Positions 1 to 24,085 of a DNA stretch of 24,085 nt are shown here, in pieces; position 1 is the first letter of the stretch, and the number at the start of each line of letters is the position of its first letter. The notes under the pieces are model-generated. The model was not told the DNA's origin. It searched no databases and saw only the letters and a program-made list of their open reading frames with translations. The position numbers and the translations under genes are program-made. This DNA comes from a virus. The DNA is taken from positions 1-24,085 of the IMG/VR virus record IMGVR_UViG_3300044732_003257; one strand, written 5' to 3'.

Positions 1-809
1 TTAATTAATTCGGGTATTAATGAATAAAATTTTTCTCGAATAACATTTGAGGTTGTTTTATAATGTGTTTGAACAATTATCGAGTTTACAAATGGTAAGA
101 TGTCACTAACTCTTTTAATATCTTCATTATTTACAATATATTCTACGAATTCATTAATTGTATTTTTAGTTATGCCAGATAGTATTAATTCTTTCCTTTT
201 TTCATTAAAATTACTTCGTTTTATTAAATCGCTATGATTTATTTCATTATATTTGTATGAATTTTTTGAAAATTCTTTTTTATTTAAAGAAGATATCCAT
301 TTTTTTTGTCGATTTAAGAATCTCTTTTCTCCCTCATCTTTTCCATATTTTAAAATGCATTTTTCTAAAGAAAATGTTTTTTGTCTTTCATGTAATAATT
401 TAGTTGCCGTTTCAACATTATGTCCTAATTTTAACCAATATTCTATTCTTGTGGGTGTTTTATCATAAAATTTTTCAGGTGAATTTTTTTTTGCAATAAC
501 TAATTTATTTACAATATTTTTTTGTTTTTCTTTTATGAATTCACTAGCTTCATTTTTTTCCCATCCCATTGACAATAAAAAATTAATATCGTTTTGGGTA
601 TTACCGTACCTCAATAATTTTTTTAATTCGGGTTTAATTGATTTGTAGTTAAGTTTATTGGTTTTAGAAATATAATTAATTATATTATTAATTTCATTAC
701 TTGGAAACTTTTTAAATGATTTGTAAAAGTTTTTAGTTAAAATAAAATTTTCAAATTCATTAATTGAATTAATTTCTTCTATAATTTTTTTTCTGTATAA
801 AATATACAT
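1..809 (-). CDS. Homing-endonuclease-like protein, N-terminal part (runs off window)
   Basis: The frame is open from the ATG at 809 to the window edge, giving at least 269 residues, so the C-terminus is missing. It is very lysine/asparagine rich. Two visible motifs, RIEYWLKLGHNVETATKLL (about residues 121-139) and SLEKCILKYGKDEGEKRF (147-164), match a helical region that, from memory, recurs in phage proteins carrying Vsr/PD-(D/E)XK-type homing endonuclease domains. The catalytic domain itself would be in the unseen C-terminus. It lies 39 bases downstream of a Clp ATPase gene that stops inside an intein-like sequence. That is where a free-standing endonuclease sits in the 'fractured gene' arrangement of split-intein loci. 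Role as a homing endonuclease is inference from motif plus position; it could be another HEG-associated DNA-binding protein. Confidence 0.6.
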   Translation of the reverse strand, partial: MYILYRKKIIEEINSINEFENFILTKNFYKSFKKFPSNEINNIINYISKTNKLNYKSIKPELKKLLRYGNTQNDINFLLSMGWEKNEASEFIKEKQKNIVNKLVIAKKNSPEKFYDKTPTRIEYWLKLGHNVETATKLLHERQKTFSLEKCILKYGKDEGEKRFLNRQKKWISSLNKKEFSKNSYKYNEINHSDLIKRSNFNEKRKELILSGITKNTINEFVEYIVNNEDIKRVSDILPFVNSIIVQTHYKTTSNVIREKFYSLIPELI

Positions 810-848: not shown

Positions 849-1142
849 TTACATAGTTTCAATATTATGTGTATTAGCTTCAGAAATTTTCTCAATCTCA
901 ATATAAGTTTCTCCAAGGACACATCCGGGTTCACCTATTATAATTGGATTATTCTTTTTTCTTCTGGATAAAATTTGGGCAATTCTATTAATTTCATTTT
1001 CTCTACCAATAACAGGGTCTAATTTACCCTGTTCCGCCATTTTTATCAAATCTTTACTGAAATTATCCAGCACTGGAGTTGCACCATCTTTTGATTTTTC
1101 CGAACCAGATTTTTGGTTACTACTTTCTTCAAACTCTATCAT
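849..1142 (-). CDS. N-terminal fragment of a Clp-type AAA+ ATPase fused to a split-intein N-fragment
   Basis: Residues 21-73 match the start of the first AAA+ module of ClpB/ClpC unfoldases: [12 protein letters not shown], then [12 protein letters not shown], then [15 protein letters not shown]. In intact Clp proteins the GEPG is followed by xGKT to complete Walker A. Here it is followed by C74 and [10 protein letters not shown], which has the form of intein block A (Cys1, then a G-(D/E)-T-x-(I/V) turn and strand), and the protein stops after 97 residues. There is no Clp_N double-helix domain: only a Ser/Lys-rich leader of about 20 residues precedes the AAA+ part, and a stop codon lies in frame six codons upstream of the ATG. 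As it stands the product cannot bind ATP. I infer that it is spliced in trans to a C-intein/C-extein product encoded beyond the left edge, downstream of the endonuclease-like gene. The alternative is a dead remnant. Confidence 0.8.
852..923 (-). other. Split-intein N-fragment (24 residues)
   Basis: These 24 codons begin with Cys directly after Clp GEPG and carry the [10 protein letters not shown] block-A-like motif. The length and form are close to the short N-fragments (about 25 residues) known from atypically split phage inteins such as AceL-TerL, and much shorter than the roughly 100 residues of canonical split inteins. Block B (TxxH) is absent, as expected if it lies on the C-fragment. 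The C-terminal His-Asn and +1 nucleophile lie outside the window. Confidence 0.7.
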
Positions 1143-4246: not shown

Positions 4247-5122
4247 TTATAATAAAGTATTTGCTTTACCGCGAGTTAATCCGGTGGACCATTTACTTTT
4301 TTGATCAATCGTATTTGCTTTACCCCTTTTTGTTTGATAAGTGTCCGACCATTTTTGTTTTGGGTCAATTGAATTAGCTGGACCTCTCTTTACTCCAGTT
4401 TCCCACTTTGTCACAGCAGGATAGCTTGGTTTACCCCCCTCAGTTGATTGTTCTCCCAATTCCGAAGTAAATTTATCATAATCAAGAAATTCGTTTTTTA
4501 ATTTTTTTGCATCCCGAAATGTTGCAAAATTAGAATACATTCTATGACTATGTTTTTGGTTATATTTTACAAATAAATCTTTATTTTTACTTAATGGCGT
4601 ATCAAAAAGAAAAATACTAAATTTAACTTTAAGGTCATCCGGTAATGTCTTAATATTTGTACTTTGTAACCATAAATCACCAAAAACTTTAAGATTATTG
4701 GGTAATTTTTCTATTGGCGTTACGTTTAAATCCAAATAACCCCCCACGGAAAGATTATCTCCCAAGGATGTTATTGGGGTTCCAACCAAATCCAAATAAC
4801 CCCCCACATGAAGATTATCCGGAAGGGATGTTAAATTTTTGCAACGATACAAATCCAAATAACCACCCACATGAAGATTATCCGGTAAAGATGTTATTGG
4901 TGTATTTGACAAATTCAAATCACCATCAACAACAATCTTTTCATAAAACTTATTATGATATTTTGCAAATTTTTCAGAATCCCCGTCAAATGCCTTAAAT
5001 AATCTAAAATTAAATTCTTCTTCATCTGTGTTCCAAACATTTTCATCTTCTTCTTGCTCAAGAAGAACTTGCTTTATAATGTTATAAAGGTCGGATTCAG
5101 ATAATTTGATTTTTCTTTTCAT
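4247..5122 (-). CDS. Leucine-rich-repeat-like protein with targeting-like N-terminus, copy A
   Basis: A 291-residue protein. Residues 1-23 (MKRKIKLSESDLYNIIKQVL then LEQ) form a predicted amphipathic helix bounded by LSE and LLE sites. Residues 25-65 are shared almost residue for residue with the paralogue at 13824. Residues about 66-175 are five to six repeats of roughly 20 residues of the type LPDNLxVGGYLDLxxTPITS, an LRR-like solenoid. Residues about 238-291 are a separate tail of three approximate repeats built on W-(x)-TGxxRGxANTIDxKxK, which the paralogue lacks. No enzymatic motif is seen; LRR-like solenoids usually bind other proteins. The gene follows the 109-residue gene by two bases, so it is probably co-transcribed from the element at 5914. 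Function unknown; I infer a packaged or structural protein from the leader. Confidence 0.85.
   Translation of the reverse strand: MKRKIKLSESDLYNIIKQVLLEQEEDENVWNTDEEEFNFRLFKAFDGDSEKFAKYHNKFYEKIVVDGDLNLSNTPITSLPDNLHVGGYLDLYRCKNLTSLPDNLHVGGYLDLVGTPITSLGDNLSVGGYLDLNVTPIEKLPNNLKVFGDLWLQSTNIKTLPDDLKVKFSIFLFDTPLSKNKDLFVKYNQKHSHRMYSNFATFRDAKKLKNEFLDYDKFTSELGEQSTEGGKPSYPAVTKWETGVKRGPANSIDPKQKWSDTYQTKRGKANTIDQKSKWSTGLTRGKANTLL
4250..4411 (-). repeat. Three-unit coding repeat at the C-terminus of LRR copy A
   Basis: Residues about 238-291 repeat a unit of about 20 residues: ETGVKRGPANSIDPKQKW, DTYQTKRGKANTIDQKSKW, and a shorter STGLTRGKANTLL. The units are diverged at the DNA level, so this is an old or selected repeat rather than recent slippage. 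Confidence 0.7.
4612..4927 (-). repeat. LRR-like coding repeats, copy A
   Basis: Tandem units of about 63 bases encode LPDNLxVGGYLDL-type repeats. The DNA of the first units is close to identical: an ACATGAAGATTATCCGG core recurs on the plus strand near 4805 and 4868. Confidence 0.7.
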
Positions 5123-10983: not shown

Positions 10984-11103
10984 TAAAAAATTTTATGAAA
11001 AAAAAATTGCAACGATTTTATCCTGTTAGACGGGAAGAGCTTATCGTTATTAAGTTTCGCTTATTATACTAACACAATTTTTAATTCATAATATGTTGTT
11101 TTG

Positions 11104-11191
11104 TACCCCCACCCAGATTCGAACTGGGAACGTTTCTTATGTTTTCCTAGGCTTCTAAGACCTAATGCTTTACCAATTTGCACATGGGGGT
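11104..11191 (-). tRNA. tRNA-Leu (anticodon UAG)
   Basis: Minus-strand cloverleaf of 88 bases: acceptor ACCCCCA pairs with TGGGGGT (discriminator A), D-stem TGC/GCA, anticodon stem TAGGT/GCCTA with loop CTTAGAA (anticodon TAG), a long type II variable arm of about 19 bases as expected for Leu, and T-arm CCCAG-TTCGAAT-CTGGG. CCA is not encoded. It reads CUA-type leucine codons, which an AT-rich phage uses more than many hosts. Confidence 0.9.
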
Positions 11192-11236
11192 GTACACAAC
11201 AAAGTTAAAACTTTATTATCATTTTTCCAAATTTTG

Positions 11237-11308
11237 AGGTCGAAGTGAGAATCGAACTCACGTAGAAAGTTTTGCAGACTTCCGCCTAAACCACTCGGCC
11301 ATTCGACC
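11237..11308 (-). tRNA. tRNA-Cys (anticodon GCA)
   Basis: Minus-strand cloverleaf of 72 bases: acceptor GGTCGAA/TTCGACC, discriminator U (typical of Cys), anticodon stem GAAGT/ACTTT with loop CTGCAAA, T-arm GTGAG-TTCGATT-CTCAC. CCA is not encoded. It is 10 bases downstream of the tRNA-Arg. Confidence 0.9.
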
Positions 11309-11310
11309 AT

Positions 11311-11826
11311 TTATTCTGTACCCCCCGAAGGACTTGAACCCTCACCAACTGAGTCGAAATCAGATATGCTATCCGTTACACTAGAGAGGTGTTTTTTAAT
11401 AATTTTTTCACATTTTTGTTTCCAGTTTGATGATAAACAAGAAATCGGTGTTATTTTTGTTAGTTGGTTTATTAATCTTATTTCTTGTGGATTATCATCA
11501 AGATGAAAAACGAACCCGTTACCATTTTTATCGAACCACCAAGCTTTTGGTTCATGATTTGTAAATATTATACGTTCTCTAGGAATGCCCAATTCAGTTG
11601 CTAATGGGAATAAATCATCCTCATTTGACCACCAAAGGACACCATCATCTCTTTTAAAAGTGTCATCATCAGGGTATTTTTTTCTAAAAAACTCCCTTGG
11701 ATTTTCGGGTCTTGATGTTACAATCCAAATCTCAATATTTAGATTTTGAATTAGTTCTTTACAATATTTTTGAATAGATTCAAAATGACCAAGGCAATCA
11801 TCAAAATCAAAGCTTACTTTTATCAT
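11311..11826 (-). CDS. HAD-like phosphatase with a tRNA-encoded C-terminal tail
   Basis: A 171-residue frame. Motif I is SFDFDDCLG (D7, D9), motif II is WIVTSRPE (T37/S38), a candidate motif III Lys is in HEPKAWWFDK (K94), and motif IV is FHLDDNPQEI (D110, D111). This is the layout of small HAD hydrolases such as 5'-nucleotidase/NagD-like phosphatases; the substrate is not readable. The start overlaps the stop of the T9SS-type gene as ATGA. Residues 146 to about 169 are encoded by the tRNA-Arg gene (11319-11390) on the same strand and look unlike a conserved domain (SSVTDSISDFDSVGEG), so the catalytic domain ends before them. Either the tRNA captured the end of the gene or the original stop was lost. 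The transcript probably carries the three tRNAs as its tail. Confidence 0.8.
   Translation of the reverse strand: MIKVSFDFDDCLGHFESIQKYCKELIQNLNIEIWIVTSRPENPREFFRKKYPDDDTFKRDDGVLWWSNEDDLFPLATELGIPRERIIFTNHEPKAWWFDKNGNGFVFHLDDNPQEIRLINQLTKITPISCLSSNWKQKCEKIIKKHLSSVTDSISDFDSVGEGSSPSGGTE
11319..11390 (-). tRNA. tRNA-Arg (anticodon UCG), inside the 3' end of a CDS
   Basis: Minus-strand cloverleaf of 72 bases: acceptor ACCTCTC pairs with GGGGGGT (two G-U pairs; discriminator A), anticodon stem CTGA/TCAG with loop TTTCGAC (anticodon TCG), T-arm GAGGG-TTCAAGT-CCTTC. The outermost anticodon-stem pair is T-T. CCA is not encoded. The whole gene lies within the open frame of the HAD-like protein. Confidence 0.85.
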
Positions 11827-13340
11827 CTTATTAAATTAATATTACCAATTTTAAATATTCTATTTTCACCAATTTTACCATTAAATTTATAAATATAAAC
11901 ATCATTTTGACAACTAGAACCATCCCACCATTCATTTTGGTCATAAAATTTATATACAAGTTCTCCCCATCGATTATAAATCTCCATTTCAAAATCATCT
12001 ATTTTTGATATACTCGATACTTTAAATACATCATTAACAAAATCAAAATCGGGTGAAAATGAATTTGGAATATAAAAATCACCGCACGATTCAGAATAAA
12101 CCGTTATTGTTGTGATATTTCCAACACATCCAAATTCATTTGTTTCATAAACAGATAGTTCATTTTGAAATTCACTTATATTTGGAAAATTAACTGAGAT
12201 GTTATTATCGTTATTTTGTTGCAGTTCACCATTTAAATTCCAAGTATATGTTGAATTGGTTGGTCCAGTTGTGGTATATATCAAATTTCTATCAACATTT
12301 GAACAATTTATAAAATTGTTTATACCTAAAATAAGAATATCATTTGGATTTTGATTTACGACAATTAAAATGGTGTCGCTATTTTGACAACCAAAATTAT
12401 CCGTATATGTATATTGAATCCAATTTGTACCTAATTGCGGAGAAAAAATAGGTCCAATATTCCAAGTACCACCAATAGGGAATGCTTGCATTTGAACTGG
12501 AGAATCGTTAAAACATAATGTATCGATTGGATTAATCGTTATATTTGGTAATGGTGATACATTTACCGTGAAAATAGTTGTATCTAAACAACCATTTATG
12601 TTTTCTTCAATCATTTCAACTTGCTGCACACCAATGGTATTCCATGTTATTGTATATGGGTTTGTTGGATAAAATAAAGAAAGATTTGTTGCATCACTAA
12701 GTTGGTGTGTTGTATTATCACCAATACAGATTGTTTGATTTAATGGAGTTACTGCTATACTTTCAAAATCAATGGGTGTGTTTGTACCATTAAAAACGTT
12801 AAATGCTGTTGGTGTACAACTGTTAGTACCCCAAGAACCCCAAGTACCATCAGCACCAGCGGTTATTTGAATTAATATGTTATCAGATGAACAACTCTCA
12901 ATCACTGTTGTTGAAAAACAAAAACTCCAAGTACAATTACCAAAATCACCCCAATCATTACCCGGATTTCCATCAATAACACCACCTTGGTCCGTTTCAA
13001 AAAACCACCCCGGTCCAACGGAAATTCCCGTGGAGGACGAAGTTATTGTACCCGGAATCCAAATCCAATTTCCTGAACCACCGTTACAATTTGCGGGTGC
13101 CGCTTGAGGTAAAGGGGGGGTTAAAGATGAACTTAAATTAATTTCAAATCCTTCTAACCAATTGGTGTTAAAATTTAAACCACTCCAACCAGTCATTTGA
13201 TAACAAACATTGATTACCGTTCCAGATGAATATTGACCATTAACCGGAGGGGGTGTTATTGTATAGGATTCAATTCCTGTGCATTGACTAAACGCAAAAT
13301 TACTTAATATAAAACAAATTAAAATTAATATTTTTTTCAT
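11823..13340 (-). CDS. Secreted T9SS-type protein with gliding-motility C-terminal (CHU_C) domain
   Basis: A 505-residue protein. Residues 1-18 (MKKILILICFILSNFAFS) are a signal peptide with cleavage likely before Gln19. The N-terminal domain is Trp/Gly/Cys-rich (GSGNWIWIPGTI, WSFCFSTTVIESCSSD), followed by PKD/SprB-like beta segments with paired cysteines (ENINGCLDTTIFTVNVSPLP; DNFGCQNSDTILIVV; NEFGCVGNITTITVY). Residues about 419-505 form a CHU_C domain: FYIPNSFSPDFDFVNDVFKV, MEIYNRWGELVYKF, WWDG, NDVYIYKFNG, and the usual end GNINLIR. In Bacteroidota this domain sends proteins through the type IX secretion system to the cell surface. In a phage it may alter the host surface or block superinfection; a virion role is less likely given the signal peptide. 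It lies between endonuclease VII and the HAD gene on one transcript. Confidence 0.9.
   Translation of the reverse strand: MKKILILICFILSNFAFSQCTGIESYTITPPPVNGQYSSGTVINVCYQMTGWSGLNFNTNWLEGFEINLSSSLTPPLPQAAPANCNGGSGNWIWIPGTITSSSTGISVGPGWFFETDQGGVIDGNPGNDWGDFGNCTWSFCFSTTVIESCSSDNILIQITAGADGTWGSWGTNSCTPTAFNVFNGTNTPIDFESIAVTPLNQTICIGDNTTHQLSDATNLSLFYPTNPYTITWNTIGVQQVEMIEENINGCLDTTIFTVNVSPLPNITINPIDTLCFNDSPVQMQAFPIGGTWNIGPIFSPQLGTNWIQYTYTDNFGCQNSDTILIVVNQNPNDILILGINNFINCSNVDRNLIYTTTGPTNSTYTWNLNGELQQNNDNNISVNFPNISEFQNELSVYETNEFGCVGNITTITVYSESCGDFYIPNSFSPDFDFVNDVFKVSSISKIDDFEMEIYNRWGELVYKFYDQNEWWDGSSCQNDVYIYKFNGKIGENRIFKIGNINLIR
11826..12086 (-). other. CHU_C / type B T9SS sorting domain (within the secreted protein)
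   Basis: Codes for residues about 419-505. Diagnostic parts are IPNSFSPDFDFVNDVF, IYNRWGELVY, WWDG and the terminal NINLIR, in the order and spacing of the family. Confidence 0.85.
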
Positions 13341-13361: not shown

Positions 13362-13760
13362 TCAAATTTCTTTATTTTTTTCTACATTTAAATAATCAAT
13401 TGCTCTGTGTAGCAGTTTTATATCGTCACTAAACCTACCCAATCCTAAGTTGCAATTGTTGCAAATATAACCCCTAAATTTATCGGTGAAGTGGCAATGG
13501 TCCAGTACCCAAGAAGTTGTATGTTTTTCACAGATTGGACAAGGACCAGCAATGGGTGGTGGATGTTTTATTTTTAATGTTTTTCTTATCTCAGCTAATT
13601 TTTGATTACATTGTTTGCATGTATTTTTTCTTCCAGCATCTATTGTTGAAAAAAATGGAAAATCGTCAATTGCTTTTTCGGTGTTGCAGCTTCTACATGT
13701 TTTTGTTTCACCAGATATTAGTTCCCTTACTTCTATATTAAATAATTTTAATTGTTCCAT
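13362..13760 (-). CDS. Recombination endonuclease VII family protein
   Basis: A 132-residue protein. An N-terminal CRSCNTEKAIDDFPFF...CKQCN pair is followed by CPICEKHTTSWVLDHCHFTD, KFRGYICNNCNLGLGRFSDD and a final helix (LHRAIDYL). The CxxC, (L/V)DHCH, RGxxCxxCNxxLGxF order is that of the T4 gp49-type HNH nuclease domain, with the four Cys of the zinc site and the catalytic Asp-His present. T4 gp49 resolves branched DNA before packaging; small stand-alone members of this family may also act as free HNH nucleases. It starts the minus-strand unit that continues 21 bases later with the secreted protein. Confidence 0.85.
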   Translation of the reverse strand: MEQLKLFNIEVRELISGETKTCRSCNTEKAIDDFPFFSTIDAGRKNTCKQCNQKLAEIRKTLKIKHPPPIAGPCPICEKHTTSWVLDHCHFTDKFRGYICNNCNLGLGRFSDDIKLLHRAIDYLNVEKNKEI

Positions 13761-13823: not shown

Positions 13824-14414
13824 ATGAAGAAAATCAAAATAACAGAATCTGACCTTTATGAAATCATAAAGCAAGTTCTTCTTGAGCAAGAAGAAGAAAA
13901 AAAAGTTTGGTATACAGACGCTGAAGAATTTGAATTTAGATTATTTAAGACATTTGATGGGGATTCTGAAAAATTTGCAAAATACCATAATAAGTTTTAT
14001 GAAAAGATTGTTGTTGATGGTTATTTGGATTTGTCAAATACACCAATAACATCTTTACCAAACAACATTGAGGTTGATAGTAGTTTGTGGTTAAGAAGCA
14101 CTCCAATAAAATCATTACCAGATAATCTTAAGGTTGGTAAAGATTTAGATTTAAAAAATACATTAATAGAGAGCTTACCAGATAATTTTATAGTTAGGGG
14201 GTATTTGGATTTAAGACATACCCCAATAAAATCATTACCAGATAATCTTAAGGTTGGTAAAGATTTAGGGATACAATTTACTGAAATAAAAACTTTACCT
14301 GATAGTTTATTTGTAAAAAATAAAATATATATTTATTTTACACCATTAAATGATAATGATGAGTTGGTTAAAGAGTATATGAAATATTATGATTTTGACC
14401 GATATAGACCATAA
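13824..14414 (+). CDS. Leucine-rich-repeat-like protein with targeting-like N-terminus, copy B
   Basis: A 196-residue paralogue of the protein at 4247-5122. Residues 1-66 (MKKIKITESDLYEIIKQVL, then LEQEEE, then FAKYHNKFYEKIVVDG) are nearly the same in both, and the DNA across the leader is almost identical for close to 30 bases. Residues about 66-175 are five LRR-like units (YLDLSNTPITSLPNN, LWLRSTPIKSLPDNLKVG and so on). It ends DFDRYRP without the repeat tail of copy A. A 45-base stretch (14103-14147) recurs exactly at 14223-14267, a sign of recent duplication or conversion within the gene. It leads a plus-strand pair with the holin candidate 18 bases downstream. Function unknown. Confidence 0.85.
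   Translation: MKKIKITESDLYEIIKQVLLEQEEEKKVWYTDAEEFEFRLFKTFDGDSEKFAKYHNKFYEKIVVDGYLDLSNTPITSLPNNIEVDSSLWLRSTPIKSLPDNLKVGKDLDLKNTLIESLPDNFIVRGYLDLRHTPIKSLPDNLKVGKDLGIQFTEIKTLPDSLFVKNKIYIYFTPLNDNDELVKEYMKYYDFDRYRP
14103..14267 (+). repeat. Exact 45-base repeat inside LRR copy B
   Basis: 14103-14147 and 14223-14267 are identical and 120 bases apart, spanning two LRR-like units (PIKSLPDNLKVGKDL in both). Confidence 0.8.
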
Positions 14415-15711: not shown

Positions 15712-17838
15712 ATGAGTGAAGAGTCAAAAATAATTTCATCGTTTTCCTTACAAGAAACATTAAATCCAAAAATTTGGGATAATTACGCAAATCCCAAAAA
15801 AGCTTCACTTAAGCCCGAAATAAGAAAAAAACTTCTTGAAATCGCACATGAATTTATGGATTTCATTGATGTTGAATTTTTTGTTGATGATATAATCTTT
15901 ACAGGTTCATTATCTAATTTTAACTGGTCCGATTTCTCTGATGTTGATTTACATCTTGAAGTTGATTTTATGCAATTTGATAAGGATTCCGTTGAATTAT
16001 ATCGAGAACTCTTTAATTTAAAAAAATTATTGTTCAATACAAATCACGATATTACAATAAAAGGATTTGAGGTTGAGCTTTATGTACAGGATATAATTGA
16101 ACCCCACACCAGTGGGGGTATTTATTCTGTGCTATATGATGAATGGGTTGTAATTCCCGAAAAAAAGGACGTTACAATTGATAAAAATCTTTTAAGAAGA
16201 AAGATAACAGCTTGGACCAAAAAGATTGATGAGGTTACCGAACAAGTTAAAAATGATGACTACGATGAGTCAATTATTTTAATTAAAGAATTAAGGGATA
16301 AGATTAAAAAATATAGAAAAGCGGGTCTTGAAGATAAGGGAGAATTTTCTTATGAAAATTTGGTTTTTAAATATTTGAGAAGGGGTAAGTATATTGAAAG
16401 GTTAATAGATTTAAGTCATAAGTTAAAGGATAAAAAATTATCTTTGGAGTCGTTGAATGAGTCATTAATTAAAGAGGTTCAAATTATAGATATTTCATCA
16501 GGATCTAGTTACCCAACAGGTAAAAAATTTAAGAATAAAGAATATTTTATGGTACACCACACCGCAGGTTCAGGTAACGCTGAAGATGTGATGAGGGTTT
16601 TAAATAAAAGAGGTCTATCGGTTCAATGGATTGTTGATAAAGAAGGTAAAATTTATAGGTCATTACCACAAGATACGGTTGGTGCTCACACCGGTTCAAA
16701 TGCAAAGATGAAAACAGTTAAAAATTCAAATACTGAAGGTGTTGAGGTTATCGGTTTAGATGATAATGACATAAAAAGAAGACATGATGCGGATATAAAA
16801 TCGGGTATTTTACCCAAACAAGCGGAAGCTGTGAGGCAATTGGTGAAATATTTGGGTTATTCACCAGATCAAGTTGTTGGACATGGTGATGTCAGTACAA
16901 ATAAACAAGCAACTGAAGGGAAGACAATTAAAGAATATATTATACAAAACTGGGATAAACCAATTAGCGGAAAATTTGATATATCTAATTTATCAACAAA
17001 TAATATAGAAACCAAAAAAGAAAAAAGTCTTTTTGATAGAATTTTATTGTTTTTAGGGCTTGGTGAAGAAGCAACTTCAAGTGAAAAAGATTTTACCAAG
17101 GATTTGGAAGAACTTATTAACTCAAATAAGGAGTTAAAATGGGAAAAAACCGGAAGATTAGAATATGATAATGATATTGAAATTTTACAAAGTGTTCTTC
17201 AGTTGTTGGGTTATTCTTTACCGGAATGGGGTATTGATGGAAAATTTGGTCCAGAAACAAATGCTGCTGTTATAAATTTTCAAAAGAAAAATAGCTTAAA
17301 CCCCAATGGTGTTGTGGATAAAAACACTCTAAAAACCATTCTTAAAGAATTATCAAAAATTGATTTAGATAGAAAAAAAATAGATGGAATTCAAAAAGAA
17401 AAGAAAATGGTAAAAATAGTTGCAACAGACAACAAGAACAAAATTCTAAAATTTTTAATGGATAAAGGATTAACAATAGAACAAGCTTCTGGTATTGCGG
17501 GTAACTTACAAGCGGAGTCAAATTTTAATCCAACCGCTGTTGGCGATAGTGGAACATCGTTGGGTATCGCACAATGGCATAAAAGCAGAAAAGAAAATTT
17601 AATCGGCTTTTGTAAATCAAAAAAACAAGACTCCGAATCGTTAGAATGTCAGTTAGATTTCTTATGGGATGAATTAACCACAAAATATTCAAATGTATTA
17701 TCATCAATTAAATCAAGCGAAAATGCTAGCACATCTGCTGAAATTTTTGCTTCAAAATATGAAAAACCAAGAAGTACCGATTATAGTAGGAGAATAAAAT
17801 TTGCGGAAAAAATATACAATGATGCATTAATTTCATAA
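15712..17838 (+). CDS. Nucleotidyltransferase-amidase-PG-binding-lysozyme fusion
   Basis: A 708-residue protein with four domains in order. Residues about 60-150: nucleotidyltransferase superfamily, GSLSNFNWSDFSDVDLH (G65-S66, D78, D80) and FEVELYVQD for the third acidic residue. Residues about 275-412: N-acetylmuramoyl-L-alanine amidase (amidase_2), with MVHHTAGSG (H282/H283), GAHTG (H326) and VVGHGDVSTNK (H391). Residues about 486-548: PG_binding_1, ILQSVLQLLGY and GIDGKFGPETNAAVINFQ. Residues about 576-706: phage tail lysozyme-like, IAGNLQAESNFNP (E602 probable catalytic) and GTSLGIAQWH. The linker at 243-256 (LSLESLNESLIKEVQ) holds LNE and IKE sites like those in leader peptides, and the start has LQE. 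The lytic part cuts host peptidoglycan. What the transferase does is unknown; the linker suggests it may be cut off. No signal peptide. Confidence 0.9.
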   Translation: MSEESKIISSFSLQETLNPKIWDNYANPKKASLKPEIRKKLLEIAHEFMDFIDVEFFVDDIIFTGSLSNFNWSDFSDVDLHLEVDFMQFDKDSVELYRELFNLKKLLFNTNHDITIKGFEVELYVQDIIEPHTSGGIYSVLYDEWVVIPEKKDVTIDKNLLRRKITAWTKKIDEVTEQVKNDDYDESIILIKELRDKIKKYRKAGLEDKGEFSYENLVFKYLRRGKYIERLIDLSHKLKDKKLSLESLNESLIKEVQIIDISSGSSYPTGKKFKNKEYFMVHHTAGSGNAEDVMRVLNKRGLSVQWIVDKEGKIYRSLPQDTVGAHTGSNAKMKTVKNSNTEGVEVIGLDDNDIKRRHDADIKSGILPKQAEAVRQLVKYLGYSPDQVVGHGDVSTNKQATEGKTIKEYIIQNWDKPISGKFDISNLSTNNIETKKEKSLFDRILLFLGLGEEATSSEKDFTKDLEELINSNKELKWEKTGRLEYDNDIEILQSVLQLLGYSLPEWGIDGKFGPETNAAVINFQKKNSLNPNGVVDKNTLKTILKELSKIDLDRKKIDGIQKEKKMVKIVATDNKNKILKFLMDKGLTIEQASGIAGNLQAESNFNPTAVGDSGTSLGIAQWHKSRKENLIGFCKSKKQDSESLECQLDFLWDELTTKYSNVLSSIKSSENASTSAEIFASKYEKPRSTDYSRRIKFAEKIYNDALIS

Positions 17839-19268: not shown

Positions 19269-19666
19269 ATCATTTAGCATATGTTAACGGTTTAGGACCA
19301 AACTATAAAGGTGAACATATATATGAGTTCATTTTTTCAGATTCTAATGAAATAGGTGGTGAATATTGGGATGCAAAACCATCACATGGTCAACCAAAAC
19401 CTCCTGATTTGGAATATGTTAAAAAAGTTGGTATACTTAAGAACAGTGGAATTATTCTCGAATTAGTTCAAAATTCCGATGTATTTGGAATGGAAGATGC
19501 TATTGATAATGTAATTGCATTAGCGTGGGAGAATAACGAAATCAAAACTAATAGTAAGAAATTAGTGTTTTTATTTGGTGAAGATGAAAAAACTGTAAAA
19601 GATAAACTTTATTCAAGAGATTTAATTCTTGAATTTGATAAAGAAATGAGCTATGAAATCGATTAA
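19265..19666 (+). CDS. Conserved-looking phage protein of unknown function
   Basis: A 133-residue protein. Stretches such as MNHLAYVNGLGPNYKGEHIY, YEFIFSDSNEIGGEYWDA, ILELVQNSDVFGMEDAIDNV and IALAWENNE are of a type I recall from uncharacterised T4-like marine phage proteins. It is globular, acidic and lacks a leader. Starts within the ATGA overlap with the previous gene and overlaps the next gene by 14 bases. Likely involved in head assembly by context; no function can be read. Confidence 0.75.
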   Translation: MNHLAYVNGLGPNYKGEHIYEFIFSDSNEIGGEYWDAKPSHGQPKPPDLEYVKKVGILKNSGIILELVQNSDVFGMEDAIDNVIALAWENNEIKTNSKKLVFLFGEDEKTVKDKLYSRDLILEFDKEMSYEID

Positions 19667-20516
19667 AGAAAAATACAATGAATTAATTAAAAATGGGTTT
19701 TCTAAGAAGACCCTTTACTCTTTGAACGAATCTGAACTTTTGGGTCTTCATAAATTAATTGTTGAACAGGTGAAACAGACAACTAAACAAGTCACAACAA
19801 CAACAATTCCCTCATCCGTTGCAAAATCAACAGGAGCAAATGTTGGTAACGTAGATATTAAACAAGATGCTTCTGGTAATATTGTTGCAACAAAGATGGA
19901 AGGTGAAATGAAAGAAGCTGGTAAGAAAAAAGTCAATCCTTGGGCTGTTTGTACTTCAAATATGGGTAAAAAATTTGGAACGACTGAAAGAAGTGAATGG
20001 TCAAAAAAACAAATGGCAGAATATGAGCGTTGTGTTATGGATGTTAAAACGTCTGCAAAAAAATATAAGAAAAAAATTGATGAAGAATTAGAAAATCAAC
20101 TTGTAAGATTAATTGAAAAACATATCTCACCTAAAATGACGAAAGGCGATTTACTTAGTTTGATTGAACAAGGAACCAAAGAGGCTCCGACAAAACCTAA
20201 GGAAACTGAAAAGGAAAGAACTAGACCTTGGCATCCCGGTAGAGATCCTAATCCCGGTGTTAATCCTGCTCCAAAAGCAAGAAAATCGGATGAAAAAAAG
20301 AAGGAAGATATTATGAAAATTATCGCAAAAATATTAAGTGAACAAGGAACCGAAGAGGCACCGACAAAACCTAAAGAAAAGGAAAGAACTAGACCTTGGC
20401 ATCCCGGTAGAGATCCTAATCCCGGTGTTAATCCTGCTCCAAAAGCAAGAAAATCGGATGAAAAAAAGAAAGAAGATATTATGAACATAATCGCAAAAAT
20501 ATTAAGTGAACAATGA
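19653..20516 (+). CDS. Unknown protein with leader sites and two large C-terminal repeats
   Basis: A 287-residue protein. The leader region has LYSLNESELLGLHKLIVEQ (LNE and IVE sites, residues about 21-39). The middle has NPWAVCTSNMGKKFGT and MAEYERCVMDVK, a Cys pair I recall from other phage proteins. From about residue 172 two near-identical units of about 57 residues follow, each with ERTRPWHPGRDPNPGVNPAP, ARKSDEKKKEDIM and the end AKILSEQ. LLSLIEQ precedes the first. So an (L/I)xEQ site brackets each unit. No known domain. It overlaps neighbours at both ends (14 bases; ATGA), within the morphogenesis operon. Confidence 0.75.
   Translation: MKSIKEKYNELIKNGFSKKTLYSLNESELLGLHKLIVEQVKQTTKQVTTTTIPSSVAKSTGANVGNVDIKQDASGNIVATKMEGEMKEAGKKKVNPWAVCTSNMGKKFGTTERSEWSKKQMAEYERCVMDVKTSAKKYKKKIDEELENQLVRLIEKHISPKMTKGDLLSLIEQGTKEAPTKPKETEKERTRPWHPGRDPNPGVNPAPKARKSDEKKKEDIMKIIAKILSEQGTEEAPTKPKEKERTRPWHPGRDPNPGVNPAPKARKSDEKKKEDIMNIIAKILSEQ
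20169..20513 (+). repeat. Two-copy direct repeat (about 170 bases) in coding sequence
   Basis: Copy 1 starts at 20169 and copy 2 at 20343, 174 bases apart; copy 2 is six bases shorter (loss of two codons). A core of about 95 bases is almost unchanged between copies, so the duplication is recent or kept uniform by conversion. Both copies stay in frame. Confidence 0.85.
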
Positions 20517-21789: not shown

Positions 21790-23559
21790 ATGCAAGGATT
21801 AACAAAAGAGCAATTAGCGTTAGAATATGTTAGATGTTTAAAGAGTACGCCTTATGCACTTAAAACGTACTTACAAACGTATGATAATACCGTGCAAAAA
21901 TATGTACCTCTTGAGTTATTTCAGGATCAAGTACAATTGATTAATGATTATGATACTTATGAAGAAAATATCGCATTAAAGTATCGTCAGGCTGGTGTGT
22001 CAACAGCAACTGCTGGTTGGGCATCAAAAATACTTGCATTTGCTAAAAAAGAGAAACCTGAAAAAATTCTAATTATTGCCAATAAATTGGACACTGCCGT
22101 TGAGATGGCAAACAAGGTTAGAAGTTTTATTGAACAATGGCCCAAGTGGGTTGGTGTTGAGTTTTCGGATGAGAAAAATGCTGCGAGACACTTTAAACTA
22201 AATAATGGAAGTGAGATTAAAGCGGTTGCAACGTCTAAAGACGCTCTTAGAGGTTATACACCAACAATTCTAATATTTGACGAAGCGGCTTATATTGAAG
22301 CGGATGATGATTTTTGGGCAGCATGTATGGCATCACTTTCTACCGGGGGTAAAGTTATTGTAATATCAACACCAAACGGATTTGACCGAATTTATTATGA
22401 AATTTATGATCAATCAATTCGTGGGATGAACAATTTCAAAATCACGGAAATGTATTGGTATAGGGATCCTAGATATACAAAAGATTTATTCTTGGTCAAG
22501 ACAAATGATATTGTGGATTATCTTTTAAATAGGGAAGAAAGAAAAGATCTAGAAATTCTTGATTTTTCACATATAGCACCAAATGAAAGAGATTTTGTTT
22601 TAATAAAAGATTATATCAGTCAAGGATTCAAACCATGCTCAACTTGGTTTGAAAACATGGTTAAAAAATTAAAGTTTGATAGAAGAAAAGTTGCTCAGGA
22701 ATTGGATTGTCAATTTTTAGGTTCTGGTGATAACGTTATTGATTCGGTAATTCTTGAGAACATTAGAGAAAATCAAATCTGTGAACCAAAATATAAAACA
22801 ATGGGGGGTTCCTTATGGGTATGGAAAGAACCAGAACTTGGTCATAAATACATTATGGGTCTGGATGTAAGTCGCGGAGACTCAGAGGATTTCTCAGCAT
22901 TTCAAATAATTGATTTTGATAGTAGAGAACAAGTAGCTGAATATCTTGGAAAGGTTCCACCTGATGTGATGGCTGAAATAGCTTATAAATGGGGAACAAC
23001 ATATAACACATATATTGTTATTGATATCACAGGGGGTATGGGTGTGTCAACTGCTAGAAAATTACAAGAATTAAATTATAAGAATTTATATGTTGATGGA
23101 ATTGAGCTTGGAAATAAGTGGAAATATGACGCAAAGGCGCTTGATAAAATTCCCGGTCTTAATTTCAATAATAAACGAGTGCAAATCATCTCATCGTTTG
23201 AAGAAGCTTTAAGACATAAATTTAAAGTTTACAGTAGTAGATTATTAAATGAATTAAATTCTTTTGTTTATATAAATGGTAGACCTGACCATCAAAAAGG
23301 TCGTCATGATGATTTAATTATGTCAATTGCTATGGCAATTTATGTTTCAGAATTTTCATTTACACAATTAGAAAAAGTAACTGAACATACGAAAGTTATG
23401 ATTGAATCGTGGCAAGTTAATACATATGAACCAAAACAAACTTCACAATTCTTTAATCCTAGCATATCTTTTACGGACGATAAAAGTATATATAGAAATA
23501 ACCCAACAAAAAAAGATTATCAACAACATTCTTGGTTATTTGGTGGGATAAGAAGGTAA
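21790..23559 (+). CDS. terL: Terminase large subunit (T4 gp17-like)
   Basis: A 589-residue packaging motor and nuclease. ATPase part: the Walker A-like loop YRQAGVSTATAG (about 65-76) lacks the usual Lys, which is seen in some terminases; Walker B is TILIFDEAAYIE (about 159-170, D164/E165); the coupling motif is VIVISTPNG (189-197). Nuclease part (RNase H-like): IMGLDVSRGDSEDFSAF (Asp near 358), YIVIDITGGMGVS (near 413), and GRHDDLIMSIAMAIY (near 502-516) supply the acidic cluster. It cuts concatemeric DNA and drives it through the portal. Starts 29 bases after the previous gene behind an AT-rich stretch, and is followed 13 bases on by portal, as in many T4-like phages. Confidence 0.95.
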   Translation: MQGLTKEQLALEYVRCLKSTPYALKTYLQTYDNTVQKYVPLELFQDQVQLINDYDTYEENIALKYRQAGVSTATAGWASKILAFAKKEKPEKILIIANKLDTAVEMANKVRSFIEQWPKWVGVEFSDEKNAARHFKLNNGSEIKAVATSKDALRGYTPTILIFDEAAYIEADDDFWAACMASLSTGGKVIVISTPNGFDRIYYEIYDQSIRGMNNFKITEMYWYRDPRYTKDLFLVKTNDIVDYLLNREERKDLEILDFSHIAPNERDFVLIKDYISQGFKPCSTWFENMVKKLKFDRRKVAQELDCQFLGSGDNVIDSVILENIRENQICEPKYKTMGGSLWVWKEPELGHKYIMGLDVSRGDSEDFSAFQIIDFDSREQVAEYLGKVPPDVMAEIAYKWGTTYNTYIVIDITGGMGVSTARKLQELNYKNLYVDGIELGNKWKYDAKALDKIPGLNFNNKRVQIISSFEEALRHKFKVYSSRLLNELNSFVYINGRPDHQKGRHDDLIMSIAMAIYVSEFSFTQLEKVTEHTKVMIESWQVNTYEPKQTSQFFNPSISFTDDKSIYRNNPTKKDYQQHSWLFGGIRR

Positions 23560-23572
23560 AAAAGATATAAAA

Positions 23573-24085
23573 ATGGAAAATGAAAAACTAACAATATGGC
23601 AACGATTATCCAAGGGATTTGGACCGAATTCATTACTTGGACAAGAAACGCCAACATTCAAATTTGATAAAAATATTCTTTTAAAGACACCAAATAAACA
23701 GGAATACGAGCGAGAAAAACTTCAAGCACAACAAACCGCTTATTTAACATATCAGTGGGGTAAAATTGAGAATAACTTATATACCCAATCTGTCTACTAT
23801 GAACCCACTAGATTAGCATCATATTATGATTACGAGAGTATGGAATATTGTCCGGAAATTTCAGCAGCATTGGATACTTTTTCTGAAGAATCCACAACAC
23901 CAAATCAGGAGGGTCAAATGTTGCAGATTTATTCGGAATCAAAAAGAATTAAATCAATATTAACTGATTTATTTTATAATCAATTAGATATTAATACAAA
24001 TTTACCCATGTGGACAAGAAATACTTGTAAATATGGTGATAATTTTGTCTTTTTGAAATTAGACCCCGAAAAGGGAATTGTTGGT
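23573..24085 (+). CDS. Portal vertex protein (T4 gp20-like), N-terminal part
   Basis: 171 codons from the ATG at 23573 to the window end, with no stop. YDYESMEYCPEISAALDTF, EESTTPNQEGQMLQIYS, LFYNQLDINTNLPMWTR and NTCKYGDNFVFLKLD match the N-terminal region of T4-type portal proteins. Portal forms the dodecameric DNA entry ring on which terminase docks. The start has an A-rich leader (AAAAAGATATAAAA) and follows terminase by 13 bases, so both are read together. The C-terminal two thirds are outside the window. Confidence 0.9.
   Translation, partial: MENEKLTIWQRLSKGFGPNSLLGQETPTFKFDKNILLKTPNKQEYEREKLQAQQTAYLTYQWGKIENNLYTQSVYYEPTRLASYYDYESMEYCPEISAALDTFSEESTTPNQEGQMLQIYSESKRIKSILTDLFYNQLDINTNLPMWTRNTCKYGDNFVFLKLDPEKGIVG

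Follow-up and report, generated by a model that had tools for sequence, protein, structure and literature searches.

Bacteroidota depend on the type IX secretion system (T9SS) for delivery of their adhesins, of the machinery for gliding and, probably, of many phage receptors, and the locus described here raises the question of what a phage would gain from a protein addressed to that system. The locus lies in a 24,085-nucleotide stretch of viral DNA (IMG/VR record IMGVR_UViG_3300044732_003257, positions 1 to 24,085; hereafter the window), in which one gene, here called the cargo gene, encodes a putative type B T9SS cargo (Table 1). At about even odds (probability ~0.5), we read the cargo as an exported protein of adhesin type on the surface of infected cells, and superinfection exclusion as its likeliest use.

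An earlier note on this DNA, made from the sequence alone, had recognized a signal peptide and a CHU_C domain ending in NINLIR and proposed a T9SS cargo, and both elements hold up. By inspection, the N-terminus (MKKILILICFILSNFAFS/QC, the slash marking the predicted cut) is a Sec signal peptide conforming to the Bacteroidetes Q-rule for signal peptidase cleavage (PMC5837995); in each of the 12 family members that have an N-terminus, a Q immediately follows the hydrophobic stretch. The C-terminal sorting domain (CTD) scores above both curated cut-offs, that of CHU_C (PF13585; E=2.8e-13, 50.2 bits, cut-off 27) and that of the T9SS type B sorting domain (TIGR04131; 38.3 bits, cut-off 35), and covers positions 3–71 of 86 and 3–60 of 85 of these two profile HMMs. 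The final ~20 residues score weakly, yet they align with the ending of 12 relatives, which has the canonical form G-x-[IV]-x-L-[IV]-[RK]; the alignment reaches residue 505 and ends as in those relatives, so that the sorting domain sits at the extreme C-terminus. Five motifs, A–E, are needed for secretion of the SprB CTD (PMC12618676). The cargo departs from the pattern FTPNGDGxND (it reads FSPDFDFVND) but keeps those columns that never vary among the phage relatives (P425, F428, P430, D433, N436, D437, W472, G474, Y482, G499 and L503). The type A sorting domain (TIGR04183) was not matched, NCBIfam at E<=10 giving TIGR04131 only. Pfam scans of the cargo and 12 relatives matched no SprB repeats; in the relatives they matched PKD_6 and Ig_7 'CHU_C associated'. 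The paired cysteines of the Ig-like stretches (the relatives, too, have one such pair in each Ig domain) are consistent with an extracytoplasmic protein.

Table 1 Features of the cargo locus in the window, and sorting domains without a passenger on other phage contigs and records (L numbers)
Feature	Position	Strand	Details
Cargo gene, putative type B T9SS cargo, 505 aa	11823..13340	-	ATG start; C-terminus ...KIGNINLIR
Signal peptide, aa 1-18, predicted SPI cut before Q19	13287..13340	-	by inspection; Bacteroidetes Q-rule
N-terminal beta-sandwich domain, aa 19-186	12783..13286	-	model pLDDT mostly 70-94
Three Ig-like stretches, aa 187-418	12087..12782	-	paired cysteines 205/251, 276/318, 346/405
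C-terminal sorting domain of type B (CHU_C / TIGR04131), aa 419-505	11826..12086	-	
HAD-like phosphatase gene	11311..11826	-	by eye; weak PHROG match; ortholog in G002
Endonuclease VII gene, directly upstream of cargo, 21-base gap	13362..13760	-	PF02945 1.4e-16, phrog_2633 2.7e-25
Phage tRNA cluster (Leu, Cys, Arg), downstream of cargo	11103..11390	-	
Tail lysozyme / amidase	15712..17838	+	PF18013 1.1e-34, PF01510 1.8e-10
T4-type terminase large subunit	21790..23559	+	PF03237 4.2e-12, phrog_2 6.8e-41
Portal protein (start)	23573..24085	+	phrog_213 4.2e-7
Passenger-less type B CTD	L217:6237-6560		
Passenger-less type B CTD	L245:4352-4675		
Passenger-less type B CTD	L248:431-754		
Passenger-less type B CTD	L238:4979-5302		
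Passenger-less type B CTD	L098:1438-1788		
Passenger-less type B CTD	L099:1417-1743		

The passenger points the same way. The N-terminal domain (aa 19-186) matched no Pfam family, and a search of GTDB genome contigs with this domain alone gave 80 loci, all in Bacteroidota where named. All 36 complete cellular ORFs carrying the domain end in a T9SS CTD (32 type B and 4 type A, the type A CTDs and one weak case being judged by eye), as against a type B CTD in 5 of 119 other ORFs of at least 400 aa. Since the domain was not picked for its CTD, this is an independent sign of a passenger that goes with T9SS cargo. Its cellular carriers run from 655 to more than 2500 aa, and the phage cargo is a compact version of them. 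With the N-domain found in bacteria only in T9SS cargo, and with the paired cysteines, we regard predicted export of the gene product by the T9SS as well supported on sequence grounds.

Structure adds a shape to this picture. In an AlphaFold model (mean pLDDT 71) the N-domain folds as a beta-sandwich and is followed by Ig-like modules, while the CTD is modelled poorly (block means 35–65). Fragments of Aureispira GhpA give the best Foldseek matches and are the closest among solved structures, and the GhpA CTD also resembles that of the cargo in sequence (E=1.1e-28); adhesin-like matches further include pilins and antigen I/II. A search of solved structures (PDB) with the N-domain sequence returned nothing credible. 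Because the Foldseek and VIA matches are of the common Ig/beta-sandwich kind (Z about 8–10, where values near 8 can be background), no function was drawn from them.

That the cargo is a phage gene, as the earlier note had supposed, is borne out by comparison with an independent 256-kb IMG/VR phage contig (G002), whose terminase is 94% identical to that of the window. G002 shares the gene order across nearly the whole window, with a few insertions, and all 32 compared genes were matched. Its cargo ortholog likewise has 505 aa and is 67% identical without gaps (77% in the N-domain), and the synonymous divergence between the two is close to that of the terminase (dS 0.86 for the cargo and 0.79 for the terminase). 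Purifying selection is evident overall (dN/dS 0.26) and is strongest in the N-domain (0.16) and the CTD (0.20), the third Ig stretch standing at 0.53. This synteny, together with the near-terminase dS and the low dN/dS, indicates that the phage lineage has retained the gene and made use of it. Its composition, including GC3, is that of its phage neighbours. Two further contigs of the same lineage, L006 and L008, start too near the terminase to include the cargo locus, but the metagenome that yielded L008 holds another contig, L112, on which the 67%-identical gene is found. The label 'flavophage' used in the earlier note is not established, since the best isolate terminases include that of Flavobacterium phage immuto at merely 27% identity.

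Several other features of the window and of G002 were recorded. The ATG of the HAD-like gene overlaps the cargo stop codon (ATGA), and this gene is not a PorP/SprF shuttle; its ORF (171 aa) runs through the tRNA-Arg gene at 11311-11390 (-), and the G002 version stops sooner, at 148 aa. A ClpA/ClpB-like AAA+ gene is split at Walker A by an apparent split intein (window 849-1142 (-) and 3-809 (-); G002 counterpart at L205:4385-6871 (-), with the C-half reading ...GISSHN/CGKTAIVEGL), and an endonuclease-like ORF follows the intein N-half in the window, with none there in G002. Two LRR-like proteins (window 4247-5122 (-) and 13824-14414 (+)) have a common N-terminus, M..IK..ESDLY.IIKQVLLEQEE, that looks like a propeptide for capsid targeting, complete with an LxE site for a protease; a third version occurs in L112, and these genes are among the fastest-evolving (dN/dS 0.36–0.40). 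The tail lysozyme/amidase gene (Table 1) begins with a nucleotidyltransferase-like region (by eye) and continues into amidase, peptidoglycan-binding and tail lysozyme domains, a composite lysis/tail protein. At window 19653-20516 (+), a segment of ~55 aa is duplicated at the C-terminus (EQGTEEAPTKPKE...ILSEQ), the G002 ortholog being 55 aa shorter. Finally, two signal-peptide proteins of G002 (L205:48-794 (+) and L091:505-1647 (+)) look like type A cargo with a degenerate or truncated CTD.

The cargo also has a family of its own among phages. An IMG/VR search with the single cargo protein found no relatives, the peptide patterns being too specific, and a profile built from the window protein and its ortholog retrieved that ortholog and one further contig. 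A DNA pattern for FTPNGDGxND matched 52 IMG/VR contigs, at least 12 of which carry relatives of the cargo, mostly full-length and with the same domain order (513–604 aa, 31–36% identical, with one short form of 257 aa). These contigs reach 322 kb (some are 150–320 kb), and portal or terminase genes lie on five of them (L227, L233, L253, L255 and L258). Throughout the aligned family, CHU_C is matched in 13 of 13 members and a PHROG in none of the 13. Deposited phage genomes gave distant matches only, in two uncultured phages of 634 and 642 kb and a 4.2-kb faecal record; a deposited marine virus matches one phage relative over 57 residues. The family is nearly absent from deposited phage genomes and so has escaped notice in cultured phages.

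In a tree with 64 cellular N-domains, the 12 phage sequences form one phage-only clade (support 97/92), with the caveats that phage members were sampled by CTD motif or profile and cellular ones by N-domain motif, and that the phage row L253 is a very long branch. An earlier tree with 3 phage sequences had nested the window pair among host sequences on a long stem, a placement overturned by the better sampling. The 642-kb phage LR756502 and a 385-kb contig have N-domains that fall outside the phage clade and represent a separate acquisition. Contigs with terminases 69–71% identical to that of the window carry different CHU_C proteins (737 and 534 aa), and two contigs of the wider lineage carry type A cargo; the wider phage lineage swaps its cargo. 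The two huge phages, LR745206.1 (634 kb) and LR756502.1 (642 kb) (L002/L003), each carry at least 4 CHU_C genes as well as T9SS genes of type A. Genes resembling those for EF-G and tRNA synthetases also occur in LR745206. The idea in the earlier note of a captured host gene does not hold for a recent capture: the nearest cellular N-domains are ~40% identical, the composition is phage-like and the phage clade is separate.

What the protein would do can be set out as a sequence of steps. The phage would produce the cargo during infection; Sec would export it, signal peptidase I cutting ahead of Q19, and disulfides would form in its Ig-like domains in the periplasm. The host SprA/Sov translocon would take the type B CTD, and a host PorP/SprF-like shuttle would collect the cargo and anchor it outside with the N-terminal beta-sandwich outermost. 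On the surface so remodelled, other phages would miss their T9SS-dependent receptors (superinfection exclusion). We infer the expression in infection, the T9SS passage, the anchoring and the benefit to the phage; our choice of superinfection exclusion over other surface roles is of the same kind, nothing in the sequence favouring either. Gliding and T9SS mutations are reported to give phage resistance in Flavobacterium columnare, going by the entry for Kunttu 2021 among the references of PMC8714846.

In known systems, PorP/SprF-like proteins gather type B cargo and anchor it (PMC9143113, PMC12618676). Type B cargo characterised so far requires such a shuttle, a need that the earlier note had missed. 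A phage-borne shuttle was sought and not found, with none in 56 IMG/VR contigs (24 + 32) and 3 phage records; most of these contigs are fragments, and the 634- and 642-kb records were covered whole. As a positive control, two host genomes gave 13 and 17 PorP/SprF-like genes, at least 11 of them, by coordinates, directly downstream of a listed CHU_C gene. An adjacent porP/sprF-like gene is usual rather than obligatory, and inspection found none among the window ORFs; in F. johnsoniae itself, 3 of 12 type B cargo are orphans without an adjacent shuttle gene (PMC12618676). The phage type B family apparently always travels without its shuttle, which makes the phage cargo an orphan obliged to borrow one from the host. 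It might pass poorly, since overproduced type B fusions in F. johnsoniae need extra cognate shuttle for secretion (PMC12618676). According to the same paper, AlphaFold3 identifies cognate pairs with iPTM values over 0.8.

Other phage genes consist of a signal peptide and CHU_C only (107–116 aa), on four IMG/VR contigs and in both huge phages (Table 1). These passenger-less CTDs pass the cut-off of TIGR04131 in 5 of 6 cases and that of PF13585 in 6 of 6, two lie on contigs carrying portal and terminase, and the four from IMG/VR are under purifying selection (dN/dS 0.26–0.36). Across ten host genomes, frames shorter than 160 aa hold 3 of the ~150 CHU_C matches listed (140, 141 and 153 aa), a scarcity that is a lead rather than a statistic because the host figures are best matches only.

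Such CTDs bring up a different use of the same address, namely that phage type B CTDs flood the few host PorP/SprF shuttles, so that SprB-like adhesins and receptors go undelivered, gliding stops and superinfection is blocked. The missing shuttle and the selected passenger-less CTDs fit this idea, as do endogenous shuttle levels that are barely detectable and limiting for secretion (PMC12618676). However, a conserved passenger of 400 aa, whose N-domain is the most constrained part, would be superfluous for a pure decoy, and surface turnover is possibly too slow for the length of an infection; we consider the idea unlikely. The broader claim that Bacteroidota phages disrupt the T9SS, with shuttle-less cargo and naked CTDs occupying scarce PorP/SprF and cutting off adhesins and receptors, seems to us rather improbable. 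If phage occupation of PorP/SprF were true, it would be, to our knowledge, the first virus-encoded interference with T9SS sorting.

An exported adhesin could also serve dispersal, making infected cells stick to particles or to one another so that progeny are freed among new hosts. The adhesin-like fold matches, the presence of the same N-domain in giant cellular T9SS cargo and the adhesin role known or predicted for type B cargo (PMC12618676) speak for this; however, a ligand-binding motif was not identified in the cargo, and its length relative to its cellular counterparts implies a short reach, and we think this use, too, an unlikely one. That the protein is instead a Hoc-like capsid decoration or a fibre with Ig-like domains, never exported, we judge very improbable: phage capsids and tails often bear Ig-like domains, and some viral-library matches are of that kind at low similarity, but the family has a signal peptide in 12 of 12, CHU_C in 13 of 13 and Cys pairs, and the cargo matched no PHROGs structural or virion family. 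A chimeric contig with host DNA, or a recent host capture without a phage role, has the host-type domain architecture in its favour and can be dismissed, misassembly being ruled out by the synteny with G002 across nearly the whole window and the equal dS, and capture opposed by phage-like GC3, the phage-only clade and purifying selection.

A surface protein exported for superinfection exclusion, our preferred reading, would bear on wider questions. A widespread shuttle-less phage family aimed at the T9SS asks how orphan type B cargo gets sorted and whether the host secretion system gives phages control over the surface of infected cells; the key question is modest display of phage cargo versus blocking of the host's own cargo. 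In the literature searched, with most subscription papers and all preprints outside its scope, no published phage type B cargo was found, and three things appear to be new: a type B family specific to phages, its lack of a shuttle and the naked CTDs. An uncultured Caudovirales phage protein, BFVD A0A6J5L8Z9, is a short CHU_C protein (199 aa) annotated 'Gliding motility-associated, C-terminal domain', of which we found no published discussion.

Among known systems, proteins predicted on the host surface have been noted in general for huge phages (PMC7162821). Q-rule proteins of P. gingivalis phages are adapted to Bacteroidota Sec/SPI export and were proposed to modify the outer surface; unlike for the window cargo, a T9SS sorting domain goes unmentioned there (PMC10367356). 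The Cryophage genes (PMC7468147, Nat Commun 2020) likewise carry a T9SS sorting domain, and their authors proposed host-system hijacking and superinfection exclusion. The Cryophage domains, however, are of type A (PorV route) and are borne by an endoglucanase, a GH39 protein and a PA14 protein, whereas the window cargo is of type B (PorP/SprF route) and belongs to a different protein family in other phages. GhpA (Grappling hook protein A) is a 5898-aa weapon of a predator. It shares with the cargo a similar type B CTD and an Ig-like passenger (PDB 9flp, 9flw and others), although the cargo N-domain has no sequence match in the PDB. Phage-encoded, small, without an adjacent porP/sprF and with no SprB-repeat match, the window cargo differs from the cellular type B cargo SprB of F. 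johnsoniae and PG1035 of P. gingivalis, with which it has in common a signal peptide, a passenger and a C-terminal TIGR04131 CTD.
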